From: Thiomicrorhabdus indica
GTDB lineage: Bacteria; Pseudomonadota; Gammaproteobacteria; Thiomicrospirales; Thiomicrospiraceae
NCBI RefSeq assembly: GCF_004293625.1
Contig: NZ_CP033040.1
Span: 2,108,001-2,172,000, forward strand
Length of the DNA stretch: 64,000 nt
Direction: 5' to 3'
Shown: in pieces, positions 44,390 to 54,476 of the stretch
Position numbering within the stretch: position 1 is the first letter of the stretch
How the letters are laid out: every line of letters starts with the position of its first letter
Notes under the pieces: model-generated
What the model was told of the DNA's origin: nothing
Databases searched by the model: none
What the model saw: the letters and a program-made list of their open reading frames with translations, nothing else
Position numbers and translations under genes: made by a program

Positions 44390-45418
44390 ATGTCGAACGT
44401 GCCTGAACGCCAAGAAATCCCAATTGAACAAATTGGTTCAATCAAAGCTCGCAACGCAGCCATGTCGAAAGGCGAATACAAAACCAAATCGTTAAAACAT
44501 CGTCCTGACCCGGAAGCAGAAAAGCTAAAAAAACCACGTTGGATTAAAGCTCAGCTTCCAAAAACGAAAGATATACCTCGGATTCGCGAATTGAAAAACA
44601 TTATGCGTGAACAAGGTTTGCATAGTGTCTGCGAAGAAGCATCGTGCCCTAATCTCGGTGAATGTTTTGGACATGGCACAGCCACCTTTATGATCATGGG
44701 CGACATTTGCACCCGAAAATGCCCATTCTGTGATGTCACGCATGGCCGCCCGAAACCTTTAAATCAAGAAGAACCAGCGCACTTAGCGCGAACTGTAAAA
44801 GCCATGCAGCTTAAATATGTGGTAATTACATCGGTTGACCGCGATGATCTTCGTGATGGCGGTGCGACACATTTTAAAAATGTTGTGCAAGCTCTTCGGG
44901 ATGAACTGCCGGATTTAAAAATTGAAACCCTCGTCCCTGATTTTCGTGGTCGATTAACTGTCGCACTTGAAACACTGGGACAAATGCCGCCGGATGTGTT
45001 GAATCACAACTTGGAAACGGTACCGCGCCTTTATGAAGAAGCACGACCAGGCGCAGATTATCAAGCTTCTCTGGATTTACTTAAACGTTTTAAAGCGTCT
45101 AACCCCGAAGTTAAAACGAAATCAGGCTTAATGGTGGGCTTAGGTGAAACCATGGATGAACTATTACAAGTCATGCGTGATTTACGCGCCCATAATGTTG
45201 AAATGCTGACCGTCGGTCAATACCTACAACCCAGTAGTTTCCATTTAGCTGTTAAAAAATATTGGACACCAGAAGAGTTTAAACAGATTGAAATCGCAGG
45301 CTATGAAATGGGTTTTGAAAATGTTGCTTCTGGGCCAATGGTACGCAGCTCTTATCACGCTGACTTACAGGCACAAGCTGACAATGGAAATGTGAGTTTC
45401 AACATTAATTTGGACTGA
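44390..45418 (+). CDS. lipA: Lipoyl synthase
   Basis: A radical-SAM enzyme that adds two sulfurs to protein-bound octanoate. Auxiliary-cluster cysteines are in [12 protein letters not shown] and the radical-SAM motif is CTRKCPFC; the C-terminal SSYHAD supplies the Ser ligand. The start at 44390 gives 342 residues and has GGA seven bases upstream. The stop codon is only 24 bases from the left repeat of the transposon-like island, so any native terminator has been separated from it. Confidence 0.96.
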
Positions 45419-45442
45419 ACAACATTATTTTGGATTCTACAA

Positions 45443-45457
45443 AATTAATTTGTACTG
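45443..45457 (+). repeat. Left end of the island: AATTAATT then TGTACTG
   Basis: The sequence AATTAATTTGTACTG is the mirror of the right border. Extended outward (TCTACAAA in front) it also matches the inner right-end repeat at 54358-54380 in inverted orientation, over about 23 bases with few mismatches. This is how paired transposase-binding sites look. Confidence 0.6.
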
Positions 45458-45460
45458 AGA

Positions 45461-46410
45461 ATGGCCGAAATTTTCCTAAACACACCACCTATTAGAGAGT
45501 TTCCGAAAGGAGACTGGACAATCATTTGGCACGGACGGGTAACTAGAAACCCGAAAGTGCCGTCAGAATTACTTATCGAAGTTCTTATTCGCTCCAAAAA
45601 TGGTGATCGAACAATAGAAATCGGAGTCGGCCAACTTCCACTTCTAAAAATCGGTTCTAATTGGAGAGATAAACGGCTTACAGATTGGAACTAAAGAACG
45701 CCCAAGATACCTAATACTTCAATTGCTAAAGTGTTCGCATCCATTCCCTTTTTCGCAGCTTCAAGTTGACCGAGATAATAACTCGACAAAGGCCGATTCC
45801 GAAACGGATATGGGGCCTGAAGAAAAGAAAGCCTACGACCGAAATACGACGAAAAGGAAATTGATGATCAAGAACTGAATAGTGAAACGGAAACGCACAA
45901 AAACCTGCCTATTCAAAACATCCTCAGCCAAACGTCTCAATTCGATTTTTTGGAAAATAAAGAAATTATCAACCCGGAAAGCAAAGAATACAACCGCTAT
46001 AAACCCCCGACAAACAAACCTAAAGCGCCGGAATCCGACGGATTAGGAACCGGGCAAGGCGACTATAGCAAGGACTCTACAAACCAAATCGAAGCAAAAG
46101 CGTTGGTGCTGATTTAAAAATGCTTCAAGAAGCAGTAAAACAATTATCTGCGGAAGGCATAAACATCAAAATTAGAAGAATTGACGTTGTACCTCTGTCT
46201 GAAGCCAGCACAAGAAGGCAATGGCTTAATTGGAGTCTGCTAGCAGAACGCGAAGAAGCTATATTAGCGTCGATATTAAACACAATGGTAGTCACTACTA
46301 ACGTAAGAAAGGCGAATGCACGGTTGGGTTACTTAAAAGCAATCACAGAATTGGCAACGAGATACCTTGATAGCATTATGAAAAATCTAGCTCGTTACAA
46401 GGGTGTTTGA
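45461..46410 (+). pseudogene. Broken gene at the left end, possibly tnsE
   Basis: Three coding-like pieces follow each other in different frames. First come 77 codons from 45461 (PKGDWTIIWHGRV, then IGVGQLPLLKIGS). Next is an acidic linker from about 45780 to 46117 (EKEIDDQELNSETETH, KAPESDGLGTGQGD) with a frame change near 45835. Last is a 96-codon piece from 46120 (KMLQEAVKQLSAEG, SEASTRRQWLNW). A short folded start, a long acidic linker and a basic C-terminal domain is the layout I remember for TnsE, the Tn7 protein that targets replicating or conjugating DNA. Residue-level similarity is faint. It lies on the opposite strand to tnsA and tnsB, unlike Tn7, which counts against the assignment or implies an inversion. 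Confidence 0.35.
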
Positions 46411-46521
46411 GAAGGTGAAAAATGGCTCTGTCACAAATGCATTTTTAGTACAAACAGAAAGAGTTCTTCATACTTTGAATACTGCTAATAAACTATGTAC
46501 AATAACTCGTTACAAAATATC

Positions 46522-48351
46522 CTAGTTAACACTAGAAAGATCTATACCATATAATTTTTCAAGATAAGCGTCTACCATATTTTGACTATTTTCACTCAAT
46601 AAATACTCAATATCTTCATCAGAAAATGGATAAATACCAAAAGATTTAATGTAATTTTTACTTAATGAAAAATACCCTGAACCATATGGTTTACTTGTAT
46701 TAGTAATATAAAACCAAAACAATCTGGACTGCATAATTTTTTTCGCTAGCCTCAAAGGATATTCTTCCTGAGAAATTAAAGCCATACCATTATGGAATAG
46801 CAAAGAATCATCATTACTTAAAATATAGTTTGGAATCTTAGGAGAGATATGAGGGAATAATAGCTTAAAAGAATGCTTATCCAACCCCTGATTTCTACCA
46901 TATGAAAACCACTCCTGATATTTACCTTTTCCTTTATCGCGTCTCGATAACGGTTCTTTATGTGCTAAAAGATAACGATATGCTTCTGGGTAACAACTAG
47001 CCATTTTTTTTTCTTGTATTACTGATGCAGAGCCATTCTCATAAAAATAAGGAAATATTATCTTACGTTTAGCAATTGTTAGGTCGTTACAATCTATAAA
47101 CTTATTGGAATTGACAATATCAACACAAATATTCTTTTCTATTTTAAATCCATCCTGAATGTGATAATAAACCTCATCTTCTTCAATAGGACTGAAAATA
47201 AAAATATTGTTTTTTAATGTTGCTATACCGTTACTTGTTCTAAAAACTTTTTGAAAAGGCTGCCCTGTAGCTTCAATTTTGGAAATTATTTCTGTCGCCT
47301 GCAAGTTCCAACCGTTGTGATTATCGAGAAGATTGTAATCAATTTTCTTCATCCCCGAGTCATCAATAGCATTAATTTTTGTTATCCTTTTATAGCGAAT
47401 ACAGCCATTTGATTTATTCGTTATAAAACAGATACAAGTGTAAGTTGATCTTGACTCAAAAACTTGCAAATCACCAAAGTCAATAATAGAAAACGGATAT
47501 TCTGAACCACTTAAAAACTCTCTTAAGGCTCGACCATTCAAGCTTTTAAAAAAAGTGTTCATTGTTATATAACCCAAAACCCCAGATGATTTTAAATTAC
47601 GCAAGCCTATTTCAAAAAAGGGGATATATAAATCTGGGTGGCCAGTCGAGGAAACATTCCAGTTTTTTAGTAACAACTTTGATTCATTATCAATATTTCG
47701 AGAACATACATATGGAGGGTTACCAACTACAAAATCAAATCCATTAAAACCATCAATCACCTTATGAAAATCAAAACCGAGGGTATTTCCAACAAACAAA
47801 TTAAAATTAAACTCTTGCTTGTCCTCACCGTTTAATATCGCCAAGATAGACAAAATAATTTCAGTGCGCTCAATCGAATACTCCATCAAGTCCACGCCAA
47901 ATAAGTGCTTAGCGAAAATATCTTCATAGCTAAAATTAAAGTCTTTATGAATAATCTCTGCCGCAGTCACTAAAAAACCACCACATCCACAAGCCAAATC
48001 ACAAACACTCGAATTTTTATCAAAACTTTCTCGATGAATTAAACTATCAATAATGAATTTTCGGATTGATTTTGGGGTATAGATTGCACCGGTAACAATT
48101 TTATCCTCTGGTGAAATCACAAACTCAAATGAAGTAATCAGCGACTCAAGCGACACAACACTAAATTTCTTTTCAAATTCTTGAAATAATTCAAAGTCTT
48201 TATCATTTTCTTTAATGATTAAAGAATTTATCAGTTTATTTTTTACAAACGCGTAATTATTTGTTTTTAGAAAAGACGAAACTATTAATCTATTCGTTTC
48301 AATAACAGAGCAAGAGCATGAATTAAGGAACTTAAATATTTCTTTATTCAT
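46522..48351 (-). CDS. Eco57I/TaqI-like adenine-N6 DNA methyltransferase, no nuclease domain seen
   Basis: A 609-residue protein. After a helical N-terminus comes GAIYTPKSIRKFIID (88-102), the S-adenosylmethionine motif CDLACGCGGFLV (about 117-128), and the catalytic motif NPPY at 211-214, all typical of gamma-class m6A methylases. The second half is a probable target-recognition domain ending in SGYFSLSKNYIKSFGI, as in TaqI and type IIG enzymes. No PD-(D/E)XK motif is evident, so it is a methylase alone. It overlaps the preceding gene by 4 bases (ATGA) and is last in the four-gene operon. The target site cannot be told from sequence. It could protect host DNA from an effector, as in BREX or DISARM, or be the output itself. 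Confidence 0.85.
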   Translation of the reverse strand: MNKEIFKFLNSCSCSVIETNRLIVSSFLKTNNYAFVKNKLINSLIIKENDKDFELFQEFEKKFSVVSLESLITSFEFVISPEDKIVTGAIYTPKSIRKFIIDSLIHRESFDKNSSVCDLACGCGGFLVTAAEIIHKDFNFSYEDIFAKHLFGVDLMEYSIERTEIILSILAILNGEDKQEFNFNLFVGNTLGFDFHKVIDGFNGFDFVVGNPPYVCSRNIDNESKLLLKNWNVSSTGHPDLYIPFFEIGLRNLKSSGVLGYITMNTFFKSLNGRALREFLSGSEYPFSIIDFGDLQVFESRSTYTCICFITNKSNGCIRYKRITKINAIDDSGMKKIDYNLLDNHNGWNLQATEIISKIEATGQPFQKVFRTSNGIATLKNNIFIFSPIEEDEVYYHIQDGFKIEKNICVDIVNSNKFIDCNDLTIAKRKIIFPYFYENGSASVIQEKKMASCYPEAYRYLLAHKEPLSRRDKGKGKYQEWFSYGRNQGLDKHSFKLLFPHISPKIPNYILSNDDSLLFHNGMALISQEEYPLRLAKKIMQSRLFWFYITNTSKPYGSGYFSLSKNYIKSFGIYPFSDEDIEYLLSENSQNMVDAYLEKLYGIDLSSVN

Positions 48352-49076
48352 GAAACAGCCAATGGAAAAACATTTTCAAATGTAAAGTCTTGATGAGAGT
48401 TACCACTTTCATATGCTCGAAAATAAGGAGTGAACATTCTCTCTTTAGCCCTAAAAATAATTTCCTCATAGTCAAAGTCATTAAACAGCTTGTTTAAAAA
48501 CACATAGTCTTTCATGCTACAAAAATTCTTCAAAATAAAATGTAATCCCAAAATGACATCCATAGGAGGGTGGGGCAGCCTTGGTGCGCCTAAAAAAACT
48601 GCACCCGATATTGCTCTTCCCTCTAATCTATTTCCACCAGACTGAAAGTGATAGAGAGGATGAGAAACTTTAGGAGGGTTAGCCCCAGGCTTCCTAATAT
48701 CCTTATCTAAATGCCATGAATTAAAGTGCTCACCATCCTCATCAATACCTTTCAGTTCAATCTGAAAATCAAATGAATCCTGAATTCTGTCATTAACACT
48801 AATATCAACTGAAATATCAAACTCAACACAAGAATCAAAAGTAATTGTTAGAGTGTTAAGTTTTGGAGGAATACTACCCGACATCGCTTTCTTTAAAACA
48901 ATTTCTATATTTTCAGCACAAACACAGATTAGATTGCCTGAATGGTGTTTAACCTTACCTGCAACTACATATAAAGTAGACTCTAGGTTTTGGAATATTT
49001 TATCACTATCATATGTTTGTACTTTTTGGGCAAGCGTTTCCAGATCTTTAGCATACTGCAGTCTATCCCACTCCAC
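48348..49076 (-). CDS. Unassigned 242-residue protein of the cargo operon
   Basis: I do not recognise a family. The protein is soluble, with a helical start (ETLAQKVQTYDSDKIFQNLE), a beta-rich middle (KLNTLTITFDSCVEFDISVD; WHLDKDIRKPGANPPK), a Gly/His segment (HPLYHFQSGGNRL), and LPHPPMDVILGLHFILKNF near 180. Clustered His, Asp and Pro in the last two segments could be a binding or active site. The start is GTG with AAGGG seven bases upstream; it begins two bases past the stop of the response-regulator gene and ends overlapping the methylase start. Such tight packing says it is an obligate member of the system. Confidence 0.75.
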   Translation of the reverse strand: MEWDRLQYAKDLETLAQKVQTYDSDKIFQNLESTLYVVAGKVKHHSGNLICVCAENIEIVLKKAMSGSIPPKLNTLTITFDSCVEFDISVDISVNDRIQDSFDFQIELKGIDEDGEHFNSWHLDKDIRKPGANPPKVSHPLYHFQSGGNRLEGRAISGAVFLGAPRLPHPPMDVILGLHFILKNFCSMKDYVFLNKLFNDFDYEEIIFRAKERMFTPYFRAYESGNSHQDFTFENVFPLAVS

Positions 49077-49077
49077 A

Positions 49078-50151
49078 TTAATACCCTTTTGCTAAAGCTT
49101 TAAAACGCTCTTTATCTATTTCAGAAAGCTGTTGAAATAAATCGTTATCACACACGCTGTCATATGAATAGTATTCTGGTTCAACCCAAGGAACTTCTGA
49201 CAATATGTTTTTTTTCTCAAAAGCTTCACTAGGATCGATTGGAATATAGCTGTGATGACAAATAGTCCAAAATTTTCTTGTTACAGAACTAGCGTCCCCT
49301 TCGACTCTTTCAAGTTCAATCTCTGGAAATTGTTCTTTTAAAATAATTAGTTTTTCCTCAGCTGATAGACGTCTCAGATGGAGACTTTGTTGCAATTCAT
49401 GACGCCACCAATACTGAATACCCTCGGCCCACCAGCGTTTGTATGCCCCTGAATAAACCCCCTTATATCTATATTGCTCGAACTTTTGAAGTAAGTCATT
49501 CCAATCAACAGAGCCCTTACTTACACCAAGTCTTGCGGTTAATACATCTTCACCAATAAGCACGCCAATAGGTTTTACAATTTTATCTAAAATAAAACCT
49601 GATACTTGGTATGTGCTATCTGAATTAACTGATTTCAAAAAATCAACAATTCTTGGGTCAATGTTTTCGATTAAATTATCGGGGATTTCCAGTAGGTCAA
49701 GCACTGATTGTTTGTTAACAATTCTCTCTTTTATCTCTTTATACGATTCAATCAGTTCTTTCATTAGAGTTGTATATTTATCTAAATTCTGATGAAATTT
49801 TTCTTTATTTATTGAGAAATCAAATAAATCGTTGCTAGTGAAGTCCTTATAAAAATTTTGCATCTTTGAATTGTTCGATAACAAAACGATCGGAATACTT
49901 AAAGATGCGTCTTCGACCCCCTGACTTCTAAAAGACTGGGCTAATGCAGGCGCATCGGTTTCACCACCACCCTCAAGAAGCTTATAATCCATTAAAATCA
50001 AATCAGGATTGGAACCGTTAATACAGCTAACAGTTTCAGCAAACGTTATAGGTTTACAATGAATTGGTTCTAATCCAAATCGCTTCAAATCTTTTAAAAC
50101 GGAACCTGCATCTTGATCTTCTACATATACGACTTTATAAACCATTCTCAT
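49078..50151 (-). CDS. Response regulator with an unknown output domain
   Basis: A 357-residue protein. The N-terminal receiver domain has the acidic pair Glu11/Asp12 (VVYVEDQD), phospho-acceptor Asp55 (PDLILMDYKLLEGGG), Ser92 (IPIVLLSNN) and Lys116 (DFSINKEKF). The remaining ~230 residues are not a known DNA-binding output. They are helical and contain an aromatic-rich piece (YKRWWAEGIQYWWRHEL) and a segment with WTICHHSYIPI. Its start overlaps the kinase gene by 17 bases with AAGGA at good spacing, so the two are made together and the kinase is the expected phosphate donor. An output other than transcription, such as binding the next two proteins, is my inference. Confidence 0.82.
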   Translation of the reverse strand: MRMVYKVVYVEDQDAGSVLKDLKRFGLEPIHCKPITFAETVSCINGSNPDLILMDYKLLEGGGETDAPALAQSFRSQGVEDASLSIPIVLLSNNSKMQNFYKDFTSNDLFDFSINKEKFHQNLDKYTTLMKELIESYKEIKERIVNKQSVLDLLEIPDNLIENIDPRIVDFLKSVNSDSTYQVSGFILDKIVKPIGVLIGEDVLTARLGVSKGSVDWNDLLQKFEQYRYKGVYSGAYKRWWAEGIQYWWRHELQQSLHLRRLSAEEKLIILKEQFPEIELERVEGDASSVTRKFWTICHHSYIPIDPSEAFEKKNILSEVPWVEPEYYSYDSVCDNDLFQQLSEIDKERFKALAKGY

Positions 50152-52456
50152 CCAATTCCTTATCTGTAGCCTTGCTTATTTCAACTCTAACCGTGGTAGA
50201 AAAATCCATCTTAGGTGAAACTACATAAATATTTCCGCGGTAACCTTTAACAATATCTTTTGTTATTTTCAGACCCAATCCGGTACCCAAAATTTCAGAA
50301 TTTTGGTCCAACAGTTCGAAACTTTCAACATTTGTTGTTGTATAAAACTCTTCAAATATTCTTTCTTCATTACCTGCTTCAATACCATCACCATTATCTG
50401 AGAACTCAACATAAATCATGTCGTCTTGCTCACCGCACTCAATAAAAATTTGACCTTGAGACTTTGCTCTTTGAATCGCCTTCTTCGAGTTTGTATAAAA
50501 ATTGAATAAAATTGAGGACCATTCAGAAGGGTGCATAGATTTGGTATAAAGCCAATCTCTATTAAATTTTGGCTCTAGCATTTCTATATTTGACTTTTGC
50601 GCATCTAACTTCATTGTTTTAACAAACTTAGAAATGACACTACGCATGTTTTGAGGGCGAATATCCCTTATCAGATTTTGAGAGACTACATCATTAAAAT
50701 ACGATGTGTAGTTATGGAAAGAATCAAAATTTTCACTCAGTAAACATACCCTTTCAAAAACTTCAGTTTCACCTTCTAGCTTATCTAATAAAAATGAGAC
50801 ATCACTTCGAATATGATCCATATGATGTTTTATTTCGTGAATAAACTGAGAAACTGTTAACCCCACACTACTCAAAACTCTCAACATCGAACGCTCTTTT
50901 ATCAAGCTAGTCAACTCAGATTTATGTAATACCTCAAGCTCCTCTACAGCTTCCTTTATTTTTTTAGCACGACGTTTTCTTTTAGTTTTTCCTTGAGGGC
51001 TTTCATCATCAAATTCTTTTTCTAGCTCTTCAATGGTTTTGGCTATATTTTGAATTCGAAGCTCTATTTTTTCCCAGTTCCCTCTATCATCTTTTTTCTG
51101 TCCCGATGTTGCCTTGACATTTCGATTCGCTGCAACCGCTAATACACCCGTAATAATAGTTCTATGTACAAAATTTCTTAGCTGTCTAAAGGCCTCATTC
51201 TCAATCAAACCTTCACGACTAGAAGTCTCGTTAAAGTTGTTTTCTTTATCTTTTAATTCCACGAAACCGAAAAAATTAATATTTGAGTGTTGAGGAAGAA
51301 TGGTTCTTCTTCGAACAGACCTATCTAAATCTAACCAATCGTCACCAGGCTCCGCATATGGTAAAACTCTAAATCCATTCCTATACAGCCTGATTCCACC
51401 TTCTTTTCTAGCAAGTTTTCTTATACTACTTGCATGCATTTTTGGAATTAAATCACTATCGTAAATATAATAAAATGCTCTAAACCTTACATACCTTAAT
51501 TCAGTAAAAGGCTTTGATTTATCATCAGGATCGTTGCCTATTTCACCAATTTCATTAATGCCTAATTTTTCACTATCGACTGTATATATTCCTATTCCTG
51601 TTTCATCAATATAACCTTCGATTTCAGCGATAGCATGCTCATAAACCATTACTTCTTTATCGGCTACAATTACTGGCTTCTCGAAATTATTTTGTTTAAA
51701 AAACTTGGCTTTAAATCCGGGATCAAGATCTGAATTTCCATCTAAATTAACAATATCCGATAAAGCAAAGGGTTGAATAATATTAGAAACATATCTATAT
51801 ACCCTTTTTATTGATGCGGTTGTCCACTTATCTCTTAGTTCCTCAATAACTAAGACAGTTCCTTTGTCTTTCACTTTATCAATAACATTTAATCTATTTG
51901 AAATACTATTCAGATCAATGTCGTTAGTGTATTCACTCCAATTAATTGTTAATGAAAGTGCAAAGTCATCTGCATCAGTTTGAGTAACGATTGTTAATTT
52001 TTTACCTAGTCTTTGAACTGAAAACCTTCCAATTCCTTTCTGACCGGCACGCTGTCTTTTATAATTTCTGGATAACGGATTATGCACTTTATCGGTAGAT
52101 GAAATTCTCATAAAACCATTAACCAACTCTTCTCTGGTCATGCCATCGCCATCATCCTCAATAATAAGGGTTCCGCCAAGGTCATCCGAATTTTTAAAAG
52201 TTAAAACTACTTCAGTGGCATCCGCATCATAAGAGTTTTTCACAAGTTCAGATACAGCTGTCTCTTGGCGAGCAACCAATTCTTGTCCTAATCTGTCAAT
52301 GATACCCGCATCAATAGAAAATCGAACTTTATCTTTTTCCTGGGCTACTATTCGATGAGTCAATTCAATCAACTCATCGCTACTATAGTCTTCACTAGCT
52401 AATAGGATTTTTAACTTCTCTTTTATCTCTTCAATTGTTTGCTCTTCATTACTCAT
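50135..52456 (-). CDS. Double-GHKL protein: Hsp90/MutL/MORC-like ATPase fused to a histidine kinase
   Basis: Counting from the ATG at 52456 (773 residues): the front ATPase has the hydrolytic Glu70 and Asn74 in SELVKNSYDADAT, DDGDGMT at 101-107, GQKGIGRFS at 138-146, then a transducer-like domain (RLYRNGFRVLPYAEPGDDW near 355-375). A basic coiled coil (about 475-520) leads to a dimerisation/phosphoacceptor helix with His540 in QFIHEIKHHMDHI. The rear kinase domain has the N box ILFNFYTNSKKAI (Asn652), DNGDGI (687-692) and GTGLGL (724-729). So an energy-using clamp ATPase seems to act as sensor for a histidine kinase. No membrane segment is seen. The frame is open to a TTG at 52621, but that stretch has no good start. 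It is first in the cargo operon. Confidence 0.85.
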   Translation of the reverse strand: MSNEEQTIEEIKEKLKILLASEDYSSDELIELTHRIVAQEKDKVRFSIDAGIIDRLGQELVARQETAVSELVKNSYDADATEVVLTFKNSDDLGGTLIIEDDGDGMTREELVNGFMRISSTDKVHNPLSRNYKRQRAGQKGIGRFSVQRLGKKLTIVTQTDADDFALSLTINWSEYTNDIDLNSISNRLNVIDKVKDKGTVLVIEELRDKWTTASIKRVYRYVSNIIQPFALSDIVNLDGNSDLDPGFKAKFFKQNNFEKPVIVADKEVMVYEHAIAEIEGYIDETGIGIYTVDSEKLGINEIGEIGNDPDDKSKPFTELRYVRFRAFYYIYDSDLIPKMHASSIRKLARKEGGIRLYRNGFRVLPYAEPGDDWLDLDRSVRRRTILPQHSNINFFGFVELKDKENNFNETSSREGLIENEAFRQLRNFVHRTIITGVLAVAANRNVKATSGQKKDDRGNWEKIELRIQNIAKTIEELEKEFDDESPQGKTKRKRRAKKIKEAVEELEVLHKSELTSLIKERSMLRVLSSVGLTVSQFIHEIKHHMDHIRSDVSFLLDKLEGETEVFERVCLLSENFDSFHNYTSYFNDVVSQNLIRDIRPQNMRSVISKFVKTMKLDAQKSNIEMLEPKFNRDWLYTKSMHPSEWSSILFNFYTNSKKAIQRAKSQGQIFIECGEQDDMIYVEFSDNGDGIEAGNEERIFEEFYTTTNVESFELLDQNSEILGTGLGLKITKDIVKGYRGNIYVVSPKMDFSTTVRVEISKATDKELDENGL

Positions 52457-52694
52457 GCAGCCATACTCAAATTCAATTTTTTCTGTTTTCAAAAGCTCAA
52501 TTCTCTTAGTGTAATGAACTTTAAGAGGTTCAGTTACTGACGTAAACCAAAATGGAACCGAAGCTATATCTTTCACTAAGAGATTGTAACGAATCCCACC
52601 ATTCTGCCAAGCAGAATACAAAATTTTTGGCTATTCATCTAGCAACCAGAAAGCACATTGGGCAATTTGAAAACGAGTCTCCACATCGTTTGCT

Positions 52695-53756
52695 TCAATG
52701 AGCTCCGTAATTCGGGCGCGCTACCGGTTGCCGGTCGACATTAATGCCATATTGGTTGCAAGCCCGCTGGATCATTTTCCCTCTAAATTCAGTCGCATTG
52801 TCCATATGCCAGCCATCAGGAATTCCCCAGCAAGGCCAATCACCGTTAATATTGTATTTAGCGAGCCAATTCTCTTTAGGTAAAATTGCATGAGAAATCG
52901 CCAAACTGGTAATCAGTCCGGACGTTGCATCAAAGCCAACTCGAAACCCCAGAACCATTCTGGAAAAGACATCAAAAACCACTGTAATCCATGGTCGACC
53001 AACCGGTTTACGCCAATGATCATCGCAAAGCTGAATATCTAATTAAGTATGATCCACTTGAACATAGGCTAAAGGCCAATCTGCTCCGGGAAATTTCCCT
53101 CTGATTGCAGAGTATTTTTCGGCCGCTTTTTTCTGCCCTTCGCGAGCCGCCATCATCTCTTTGGGGTTTTTCTTGGTTATCCAGTTTCTAATCGTATTGC
53201 AGTGCGGAGACTTGAGGTTTTTCAAGCGACATAATCTTTCTACTTAACGACAAACCTTAGCAACCGACTTTTTCTGTTGAGTTTTGTATTCATTTTGGAT
53301 AGCCGTTTCGACAATTTCTTTAATCTCCGGCGCTAATCGAGGTTCGCCTTTGTCGGTTCGATCTTCTCTAAGTAAATCAGTCACTTTGCCGGTTTCTTGA
53401 AAACGCTTTATCCAGCCGTATAGAGTATTTGTCGATATCCCGAATTCTTTGGCTCTAGCTTCCACCATTTTACGAGTTCGTCCTGCAACCAGTAATGGTT
53501 GAACAATATCAAACCTTTCCATGGCTTGGTTCCAAGAATCATCGGAAATTCTTTGCAAATCATCTGTCTTTTTCGGTTCTTCAAATTTAGATACTGAAAC
53601 CTCAGAGATGGAAACCTCTTTAATTGCGCCTGTTTCAGCATAAATGAGAACTACTGTATTTATACTATTCACTTGGCGGATAAAATAGCGTTCGTTTTGA
53701 TAAACCACGCTTTCGCCGATTTCAAGTTGAAGCAAACCGTTATTACCCATATCCAA
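52695..53756 (-). pseudogene. tnsB: tnsB remnant with two in-frame ochre stops and a lost C-terminus
   Basis: One reading frame of 354 codons encodes a TnsB-type transposase, the DDE enzyme that cuts and joins Tn7 3' ends. The N-terminal helix-turn-helix part contains ARAKEFGISTNTLYGWIKRF. TAA codons interrupt at 53244-53246 (KKSVAKVCR, stop, VERLCR) and 53043-53045 (VQVDHT, stop, LDIQL). The family sequence continues smoothly across both, so they are nonsense changes, not frameshifts. The first catalytic Asp (VQVDHT) and second (HMDNATEF) remain; the region with the catalytic Glu is missing because the frame ends after RPNYGAH. Past that point another frame reads ELIEANDVETRFQIAQC to a TAG at about 52633, probably the tail of a different gene joined by deletion. 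Confidence 0.85.
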
Positions 53757-54306
53757 ACCTTAAAATCGGCGTGTTCATATTCAACGGACTGCTCTCCAAA
53801 TCGCATATCATTTGGCGAGTGCCAACCAAATACCACAGAGTCGGCAACAAGGCAGCCTTATCCCAATCACTTTGCACTAATTCACTCAATAATTGAGCCA
53901 GCGTTGAACTTTTCAGTTCGCGGAGTTTATTATCGAGCAGATTCATATCACCTTCTCTATCCGCACCTCGCCGAATAAATGGCTGAAGGAATTTTGCGTT
54001 TTTCTGCAATACTGTACGAACTTCCACTTCTGTCATAATCTTAAACTTCCAACCTTGCTGCTTGGTTTTACGCTTAAAAATGACATCCGGAAAATAGCGG
54101 CGGTGCTTACCGTTTTGATCCGTCCACTCTATCTTTACAGGCTGAACTTCAAACTCCAGCACATGGGAATCGAATTCAAGAAGTGTGATAAAATCGCGCT
54201 CCAGAGTGGATTCAAACATAGCCGAATCAATCGACTTGCTGGAAGCGTAAATTCCGGTGACATTACGATAGCTTTTCGGGATGCGTCTGACAGGCATATT
54301 ATGCAT
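53743..54306 (-). pseudogene. tnsA: tnsA remnant with an internal deletion
   Basis: A 187-codon open frame related to TnsA, the endonuclease that cuts Tn7 5' ends and works with TnsB. FESTLERDFITLLEFD and the catalytic Asp region HRRYFPDVIF are clear, as is the later GWKFKIMTEVEVRT. Between them, where TnsA has its Glu/Gln-x-Lys strand and a helix (about 25-40 residues), the chain passes straight from KRKTKQ to QGWKF. The catalytic Lys is therefore gone although the frame is intact. It overlaps the tnsB start by 14 bases and lies about 100 bases inside the right end, the normal tnsA position. I call it a pseudogene on these grounds. Confidence 0.7.
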
Positions 54307-54356
54307 CCAGTACAGTTTAATTTTGTATAGAAGTTACCTTGCTAATTCGATTGTAG

Positions 54357-54417
54357 TTCAGTACAAAATTATTTTGTAGAAAAAGATAAAAATGAGCACT
54401 TCCAGTACAAATTAATT
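54357..54417 (+). repeat. Right end of the island: two transposase-site-like repeats and the border AATTAATT
   Basis: An inner copy CAGTACAAAATTATTTTG (from 54358) continues into TAGAA and matches the inverse of the left border. An outer copy CAGTACA (54403-54409) is followed by AATTAATT (54410-54417), the same 8 bases that precede the left terminus. Confidence 0.6.
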
Positions 54418-54476
54418 ATGGAAGTCATAAAAGCAAAAATTCAATTTAACCAACTTTAGAGAAGAGTTTGAACAAA

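Follow-up and report, generated by a model that had tools for sequence, protein, structure and literature searches.

A transposon-borne operon of a double-ATPase sensor kinase, a response regulator, a protein of no known fold and an adenine methylase in Thiomicrorhabdus indica: a candidate DNA immune module

A stretch of 64,000 nucleotides from Thiomicrorhabdus indica (contig NZ_CP033040.1, positions 2,108,001 to 2,172,000; hereafter the window) contains an operon of four genes, ABCM, which encodes a sensor kinase (A), a response regulator (B), a 242-residue protein (C) and a DNA adenine methylase (M). The gene set is conserved in close relatives, the residues of the phosphorelay and of the ATPase and methylase motifs are intact, A, B and C form a core to which the methylase is less tightly linked, and the operon is carried as cargo in a mobile element. 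On balance, we infer that ABCM is a mobile immune module that tells self from non-self DNA in a manner akin to restriction-modification (R-M) and that it works through a phosphate relay. The family is known from isolates of three phyla and from metagenome bins labelled as up to five more, and its carriers include a transposon remnant, a plasmid and viral contigs. Two-component signalling and restriction-modification come together in this family, whose middle proteins, B and C, carry no family name.

The operon and its conservation

All four genes are open reading frames (ORFs) on the reverse strand: A at 50135..52456 (773 residues from an ATG), B at 49078..50151 (357 residues), C at 48348..49076 (242 residues from a GTG) and M at 46522..48351 (609 residues). 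A preliminary description of this DNA, made from the letters alone, had stated that the genes overlap or abut, and the coordinates confirm its spacings: A and B overlap by 17 bases, B and C are 1 base apart, and C and M overlap by 4 bases. The guanine-plus-cytosine (GC) content of the operon is 33.5%, compared to 42.1% and 39.6% in its flanks. The long ORF that would make A a protein of 828 residues was rejected because it begins with in-frame residues from the tail of a TniQ gene, and a start at the ATG at 52456 agrees with the relatives. Over 52457-52621 this tail shares the frame of A, so that automatic ORF calling extends A by 55 residues at its start.

We scanned 84,980 species genomes with a profile of eight A sequences and obtained 238 relatives. 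The counts given here cover the best 80 loci, all in genomes other than that of the window, which were picked by similarity of A, so the figures hold for close relatives; some of the counted B, C and M genes are partial, and an M was assigned to the window's family at more than 50 bits. B was found at 79 of these loci, C at 75 and M at 72, and the genes were consecutive on the same strand for A-B at 79 loci, for B-C at 75 and for C-M at 71. Median gaps were -11, -4 and -4 bases, respectively, with mechanical ORF starts. The contig ends before the missing gene is complete both at the locus without B (L100) and at the five without C (L040, L076, L084, L099 and L100). Seventy-one of the 72 M genes are on the operon strand; the remaining one (L049) has the opposite orientation, at a locus where both A and C are split. 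These profile searches, of a kind that the preliminary description had proposed, show that close relatives keep the four genes together; among the 80 loci homologues were not usually found apart.

The position of the methylase is variable, on either side of A-B-C. Another Eco57I-type methylase stands immediately before A at L062, L088, L097 and L099 (profile matches of 25-36 bits at three loci; L088 was read from the sequence), and an Eco57I-type methylase is present at 76 of the 80 loci in all. The other four reach contig ends downstream, so no downstream judgement is possible at L040, L084, L076 and L100; at L040 and L084 a gene with a type-III-like DPPF motif, noted by eye, precedes A. Pairwise distances of A, B and C correlate with one another at 0.74-0.79 and with those of M at 0.41-0.48, and on a tree of A with 87 rows the methylase arrangement requires four changes among the 84 labelled rows (three are unlabelled). 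A-B-C thus behaves as a core with a more exchangeable methylase.

By record titles, A-B-C occurs in isolates of Bacteroidota, Pseudomonadota and Campylobacterota. Thermodesulfobacteriota, Chloroflexota, Bacillota and Planctomycetota are represented by metagenome bins only and Nitrospirota by an incomplete bin (L099), and some of the labels may err, since one bin labelled Staphylococcus falls beside a Bacteroides bin in the grouping. Outside the window, searches with C gave a single match among 190 other relatives, a single match among 394 other Bacteroidota genomes, and one match each on a plasmid and a viral contig, and all four matches adjoin B and A or a piece of A; C was present once per genome in 20 whole operon-bearing genomes. 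A search with B of 369 genomes of the window's class matched six, the window included. One of the others (G617, loci L134 and L139) has a very divergent A-B-C, after which an Eco57I-like gene begins; this suggests that the family extends beyond the 80 loci counted here. In two more (G725 and G103) a kinase is paired with a receiver protein, and no C was seen in the short sequence covered (none was left after B in G103), and the last two (G071 and G179) gave weak B matches in long proteins. Distant kinase-receiver pairs that lack C therefore probably exist.

Conserved residues were scored in 67 aligned sets, namely the window plus the 66 of 72 four-gene loci that passed length filters. Kinase A consists of a GHKL ATPase domain (Pfam HATPase_c_3, residues 65-196, 1.8e-22), a middle region, a DHp-like stretch with His540 and a C-terminal HATPase_c domain (residues 648-761, 3.4e-22), and Pfam found both ATPase domains in 8 of 8 A proteins. 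The DHp assignment is based on His540 and on matches to solved histidine kinases, which run from about residue 523-545 to about 750-770. In the first ATPase E70, N74, D101, G103 and G105 are invariant in 67 of 67 sets. The kinase part is equally constant (H540, E541, N652, D687, G689, G691, G724, G726 and G728, 67/67).

Response regulator B has a receiver domain at about residues 1-122, with Asp12, Asp55 and Lys116, followed by a C-terminal part of about 210 residues. D12 and D55 are invariant, position 11 is D or E in every set, position 92 is serine in 60 sets and threonine in seven, and position 116 is lysine in 62 sets and arginine in five. The numbering of His540 and Asp55 in the preliminary description was correct, and both residues of its proposed relay are kept in all 67 sets. 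The AlphaFold2 model of B (predicted local distance difference test, pLDDT, 93.3) folds in its first part like receiver domains (Foldseek, E about 1e-5); for the C-terminal 210 residues there was no convincing match among the 50 listed of 1446. Pfam gave a single match, at E 0.1, for B of the window. Among 74 B proteins it recognised Response_reg in three and iREC, the inactive receiver, in five (best 8.9e-5).

Protein C has the conserved motif HxD..HPxYH..PRxxHxP. H139, H143, R166 and P171 are invariant in all 67 sets, H122 and D124 are kept in 66 and H169 in 64, and position 173 is aspartate in 54 and glutamate in 13; the arrangement of histidine and aspartate residues suggests a metal site. 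C matches no curated family convincingly and no known fold. Pfam on 73 C proteins gave three single weak matches to three different families, the best being AbiTii at 0.0025; the rest had no match at 0.01, and no family was common to the C relatives. The AlphaFold2 model of C (pLDDT 93.6) had no Foldseek match at E 0.001, the best being 0.58 in the PDB and 0.047 among the viral models of BFVD. Profiles of B and of C each found one weak match among PDB sequences, and B and C of the window had no match better than E 0.02 in Pfam, NCBIfam, PADLOC or PHROG.

Methylase M matches Eco57I (6.3e-27) and N6_Mtase (7.3e-18) in Pfam and MTase_II in PADLOC (346 bits). It has the motifs NPPY and DxxCGCGG, of which N211-P-P-Y214 is invariant in 67 of 67 sets, and its nearest solved relatives are the adenine-specific methyltransferase 7lni and M.BseCI. 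M showed no recognisable nuclease domain. The unit that the preliminary description had outlined, a His-Asp relay with a GHKL ATPase and an adenine-type DNA methylase on a transposon remnant, is therefore upheld.

Mobile setting of the operon

The carrier appears to be a Tn7-like element of about 9.0 kb (45391..54429). Its boundaries, TGTGAG within the 3' end of lipA and ...GAAGTCATA just ahead of hslO, were set by eye from a comparison with loci L128 and L130. Each end has three 20-mers that resemble TnsB sites (starting at 45398, 45418 and 45438 and at 54308, 54359 and 54403). On the reverse strand the element retains a TnsA-like endonuclease (53743..54306; shortened relative to a 217-residue relative; Pfam and a gapped match), a TnsB remnant with three stops (52680..53756; residues 1-359 of 628) and a TniQ remnant (52484..52699; the tail, residues 271-341 of 352; tblastn 5.9e-16, 47%) whose frame runs into A. 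On the forward strand, 45461..46522 holds a broken remnant of a 549-residue ORF, seen as tblastn pieces in three frames with residues about 75-252 missing. No match to TnsC was found in the stretch. These remnants and end sites bear out the earlier claim of a transposon remnant. Because TnsB is broken and is the sole TnsB match in the genome, the window's element is probably immobile. No target duplication was seen at the window; L128 and L130 have 5-base duplications (CAAGA and CAGAA). In those two loci the ORF is open, 549-556 residues long, and marks the side of the element next to lipA although the cargoes differ (L128:12973-14622, reverse strand; L130:374-2044, forward strand). It matched no Pfam family (L128) and may belong to the core of the element.

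A Tn7-like element of the TnsABC-TniQ type inserts at the 3' end of lipA and carries restriction-type genes as exchangeable cargo, and a displaced lipA tail was found past the far end of the element. Among 32 genomes of the genus, 29 have lipA and hslO matches on one contig, 25 of them less than 250 bases apart. Four gaps are filled: the window (9.1 kb), G024 (13.3 kb), G013 (18.9 kb) and G014 (1.4 kb). The site in G024 holds open TnsA-TnsB-TnsC-TniQ genes, a C5 methylase, a Response_reg_2 protein, an HEF_HK kinase, Vsr and the 549-residue ORF, and G057, of another genus, has a similar gene set at the same site (Pfam was run on the G024 genes except TnsA and TnsB and on the receiver and kinase of G057; the remainder was read by eye). 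In G013 the site contains TnsABC-TniQ, the same 549-residue type of ORF and genes read as type I restriction-modification and ATPases. The gap in G014 (L131) holds a glycine-rich ORF of 258 residues, with no transposon genes seen. Two methylase-linked kinase modules and an apparent type I R-M system thus fill one site in turn, which suggests that they do similar work. G060, of the window's family, has the four ABCM genes away from lipA. A third Response_reg_2 match was found in G001, whose lipA and hslO (74 bases apart) are on a different contig from the match, so the HEF_HK/Response_reg_2 system is not bound to the lipA site. The words lipA, lipoyl and lipoate are absent from the main text of a survey of Tn7 targets (PMC10293859).

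The same four genes in the same order are present on a plasmid of Hymenobacter sp. PAMC 26628, near a Piwi protein and another DNA methylase. A scan of viral contigs with A gave 11 loci, of which L012-L014 have A-B-C; L015-L022 have more distant kinases only, with no match to B or C. Scans with B and C raised the viral contigs with A-B-C to five (L010-L014). An Eco57I-type methylase precedes A in four of the five (Pfam-tested in L010 and L014), and L012 begins at A. In L015, L016 and L017 the distant double-ATPase kinase is followed by a gene that may encode its receiver protein (Response_reg is matched weakly in L015 and L017 and not at all in L016), and a cytosine-methylase-like gene was noted by eye near that of L015; these contigs perhaps represent further lineages of the same kind. 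A phage collection searched with C of L014 and Escherichia coli genomes searched with the L014 operon gave no match.

For 20 of the 80 loci the flanking genes were compared with control genes. The flank set comprised 112 ORFs of at most 900 residues, no more than three from either side; the control set was 120 ORFs drawn from the 228 present in arbitrary 15-kb stretches, one per genome, of the genomes that hold these loci. At 1e-20, PADLOC matched 56 families in the flank ORFs and three in the control ORFs. The 25 families listed of these 56 were each matched by two proteins and are of the types MTase_III, MTase_II, AbiEi and AbiEii. Pfam matches in the flanks include, among 25 listed of 78 families, four integrases, three AbiEii, a Schlafen-type helicase and nSTAND3. 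The support for a defence neighbourhood is real but modest.

Proposed function and its alternatives

An order of events can be proposed from the families to which the proteins belong (GHKL clamp, kinase, receiver and methylase). M would methylate adenine at a specific sequence in host DNA. A, a putative paraMORC-type GHKL clamp fused to a histidine kinase, would change shape when its N-terminal ATPase met foreign or unmethylated DNA; its C-terminal ATPase would then phosphorylate His540, and the phosphate would pass to Asp55 of B. Phosphorylated B may switch on C through its C-terminal part, and C would be the effector, presumably an enzyme, that attacks DNA or the cell. The gene order in the 80 relatives, the invariant residues, the mobile carriage, the GC contrast and the PADLOC families in the flanks support the immune reading. 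A more specific version can be put forward tentatively: restriction would be licensed by phosphorylation, with a MORC/MutL-type clamp that reads methylation, a His-Asp signal to an effector of new fold and an exchangeable methylase that supplies the self mark. If that were true, ABCM would represent a class of immunity in which discrimination and attack are separated by a classical two-component relay. The module would also hint at the role of the uncharacterised HEF_HK-type kinases and make it possible to ask directly if DNA methylation is read by a MORC-like ATPase.

Several points weigh against an immune function. Two-component pairs most often control transcription, and the target domains of many restriction systems are hypervariable; the recognition half of M is no more variable than the remainder. 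No nuclease or toxin family or fold was recognisable in B or C by Pfam on the relatives or by Foldseek. Five of the 74 B proteins match iREC, best or also, and three match Response_reg, though Asp55 is invariant. The PADLOC counts in the flanks are of families and not of genes. The system is rare, with one occurrence in 394 Bacteroidota genomes besides the chosen centre. Vsr most often lies just after the receiver gene in HEF_HK modules, according to passages of PMC8011034, and the idea that C occupies this slot is a weak lead only, as Vsr precedes the kinase in both HEF_HK relatives (L128 and L129) and C is not in the Vsr slot there.

Among the other explanations, an epigenetic regulator survives best and is nonetheless unlikely. 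A and B would sense the state of DNA or of a nucleotide and control transcription, including that of M, with C as an accessory. The histidine kinase-response regulator architecture and the retained relay residues fit such a role, and the authors who described the HEF_HK pair in 2021 speculated, in part of their text, that it signals to control R-M (PMC8011034). Against it, no DNA-binding domain was recognised in B by Foldseek or by Pfam on 74 relatives, where one may still exist; the N-terminal domain of A is a GHKL ATPase, and the module is cargo at a place used for restriction-type genes. We give still less weight to an addiction or stabilisation module, in which C (or B with C) would be harmful unless M methylates DNA, so that loss of the element kills the host. 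Carriage on a transposon remnant, a plasmid and viral contigs agrees with this, and R-M systems can behave in this way, as a passage of PMC8011034 notes; such a role is compatible with defence, yet the carrier in the window looks decayed and the genome has no other TnsB. Least probable is a split R-M enzyme, in which A itself would cleave DNA like the HgiDII/BbrUII-type enzymes and B and C would only modulate it: residues 45-218 of A match that family (2e-24; 86 bits, where the family cut-off is 550), but the match is confined to the GHKL part, the remainder of A is a kinase, and no nuclease domain was found in A.

Comparison with known systems

The preliminary description knew of no named system with this combination of genes. 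That statement holds for the literature searched and for PADLOC, where version 2.0.0, run as that description had advised, gave no match at E 0.1 for B and C of the window. Titles and the beginnings of abstracts of the papers listed, a body in which subscription papers and preprints were largely outside scope, did not name the ABCM combination, and none was found to combine Eco57I with a kinase and a regulator. The novelty has to be narrowed in one respect: HEF_HK modules are a precedent for a double-GHKL kinase with a receiver and a methylase. As described in passages of Bellieny-Rabelo et al. 2021 (PMC8011034), HEF_HK (PF19191) and Response_reg_2 (PF19192) form two-component-like modules near R-M genes, with a cytosine methylase and often Vsr. 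Like ABCM, they have a kinase with an N-terminal HATPase_c_3, a DHp and a C-terminal HATPase_c domain, an adjoining receiver-domain protein and a DNA methylase close by, and in two relatives they occupy the same Tn7-like cargo site. By profile comparison, A is remotely homologous along its length to HEF_HK kinases (hhalign 99.9% over 679 columns, against a two-sequence profile). ABCM differs from them in having an Eco57I/N6_Mtase methylase in place of a C5 enzyme, no Vsr or HNH among its four genes, a B that shows no relation beyond the receiver motif (hhalign 2.6%, 17 columns, two-sequence profile) and C, which does not figure in the passages describing that system (PMC8011034). B and C are not detectably related to the HEF_HK system. 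We rejected the identity of the two systems: PF19191 was found in 0 of 8 A proteins at E 0.1 by the same library that finds it in the kinases of both relatives, and PF19192 in 0 of 74 B proteins at E 0.1, with positive controls of 8.3e-26 (L128) and 8.6e-19 (L129). PF19192 had no match in the window's genome either.

Named defence systems are more distant. Detocs is a defensive two-component system, as stated in part of PMC11249213. Its best-described form has three genes with a PNP effector, whereas ABCM has a methylase and no PNP family in A, B, C or M, in agreement with the earlier remark that Detocs has different parts. BREX, DISARM and MADS share an adenine methylase with ABCM, and M matches the models of PglX, DrmMI and MAD2 weakly and in the methylase part only. 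The partner genes of those systems are PglZ and BrxC in BREX, DrmA in DISARM and the other MAD proteins in MADS; no PglZ, BrxC-like ATPase, DrmA or other MAD protein was found among the four ABCM proteins. Domain and PADLOC scans thus led us to reject Detocs, BREX, DISARM and MADS. Compared to type II R-M, ABCM has the methylase; family and fold searches of B and C recognised no nuclease, and A has only its GHKL part in common with HgiDII-type enzymes.

Four further reports bear on the comparison, each through part of its text. Tn7-like transposons carry restriction and other defence genes as cargo (PMC8649781), and the terms histidine kinase, response regulator, two-component, HATPase and paraMORC are absent from the main text of that paper. 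A legend in DefensePredictor (PMC13092281) labels predicted systems, unvalidated as defensive, with the abbreviations HATPase and REC, and one of these may be the ABCM operon. The example of VcSduA establishes that phage defence can require a GHKL ATPase domain (PMC12137116). The passages of a 2026 survey of BREX that we examined (PMC12839542) contain nothing like ABCM.

The paraMORC GHKL ATPases provide the other precedent, since they occur in R-M operons linked to DNA methylases (passages of Iyer et al. 2008, PMC2292703). Unlike the operons described there, ABCM has a kinase half and a receiver partner, and neither a helicase nor a recognised endonuclease is present among its four genes. In our reading, ABCM is probably an unnamed immune system of a kind, kinase with receiver and methylase, that has already been described and is uncharacterised.

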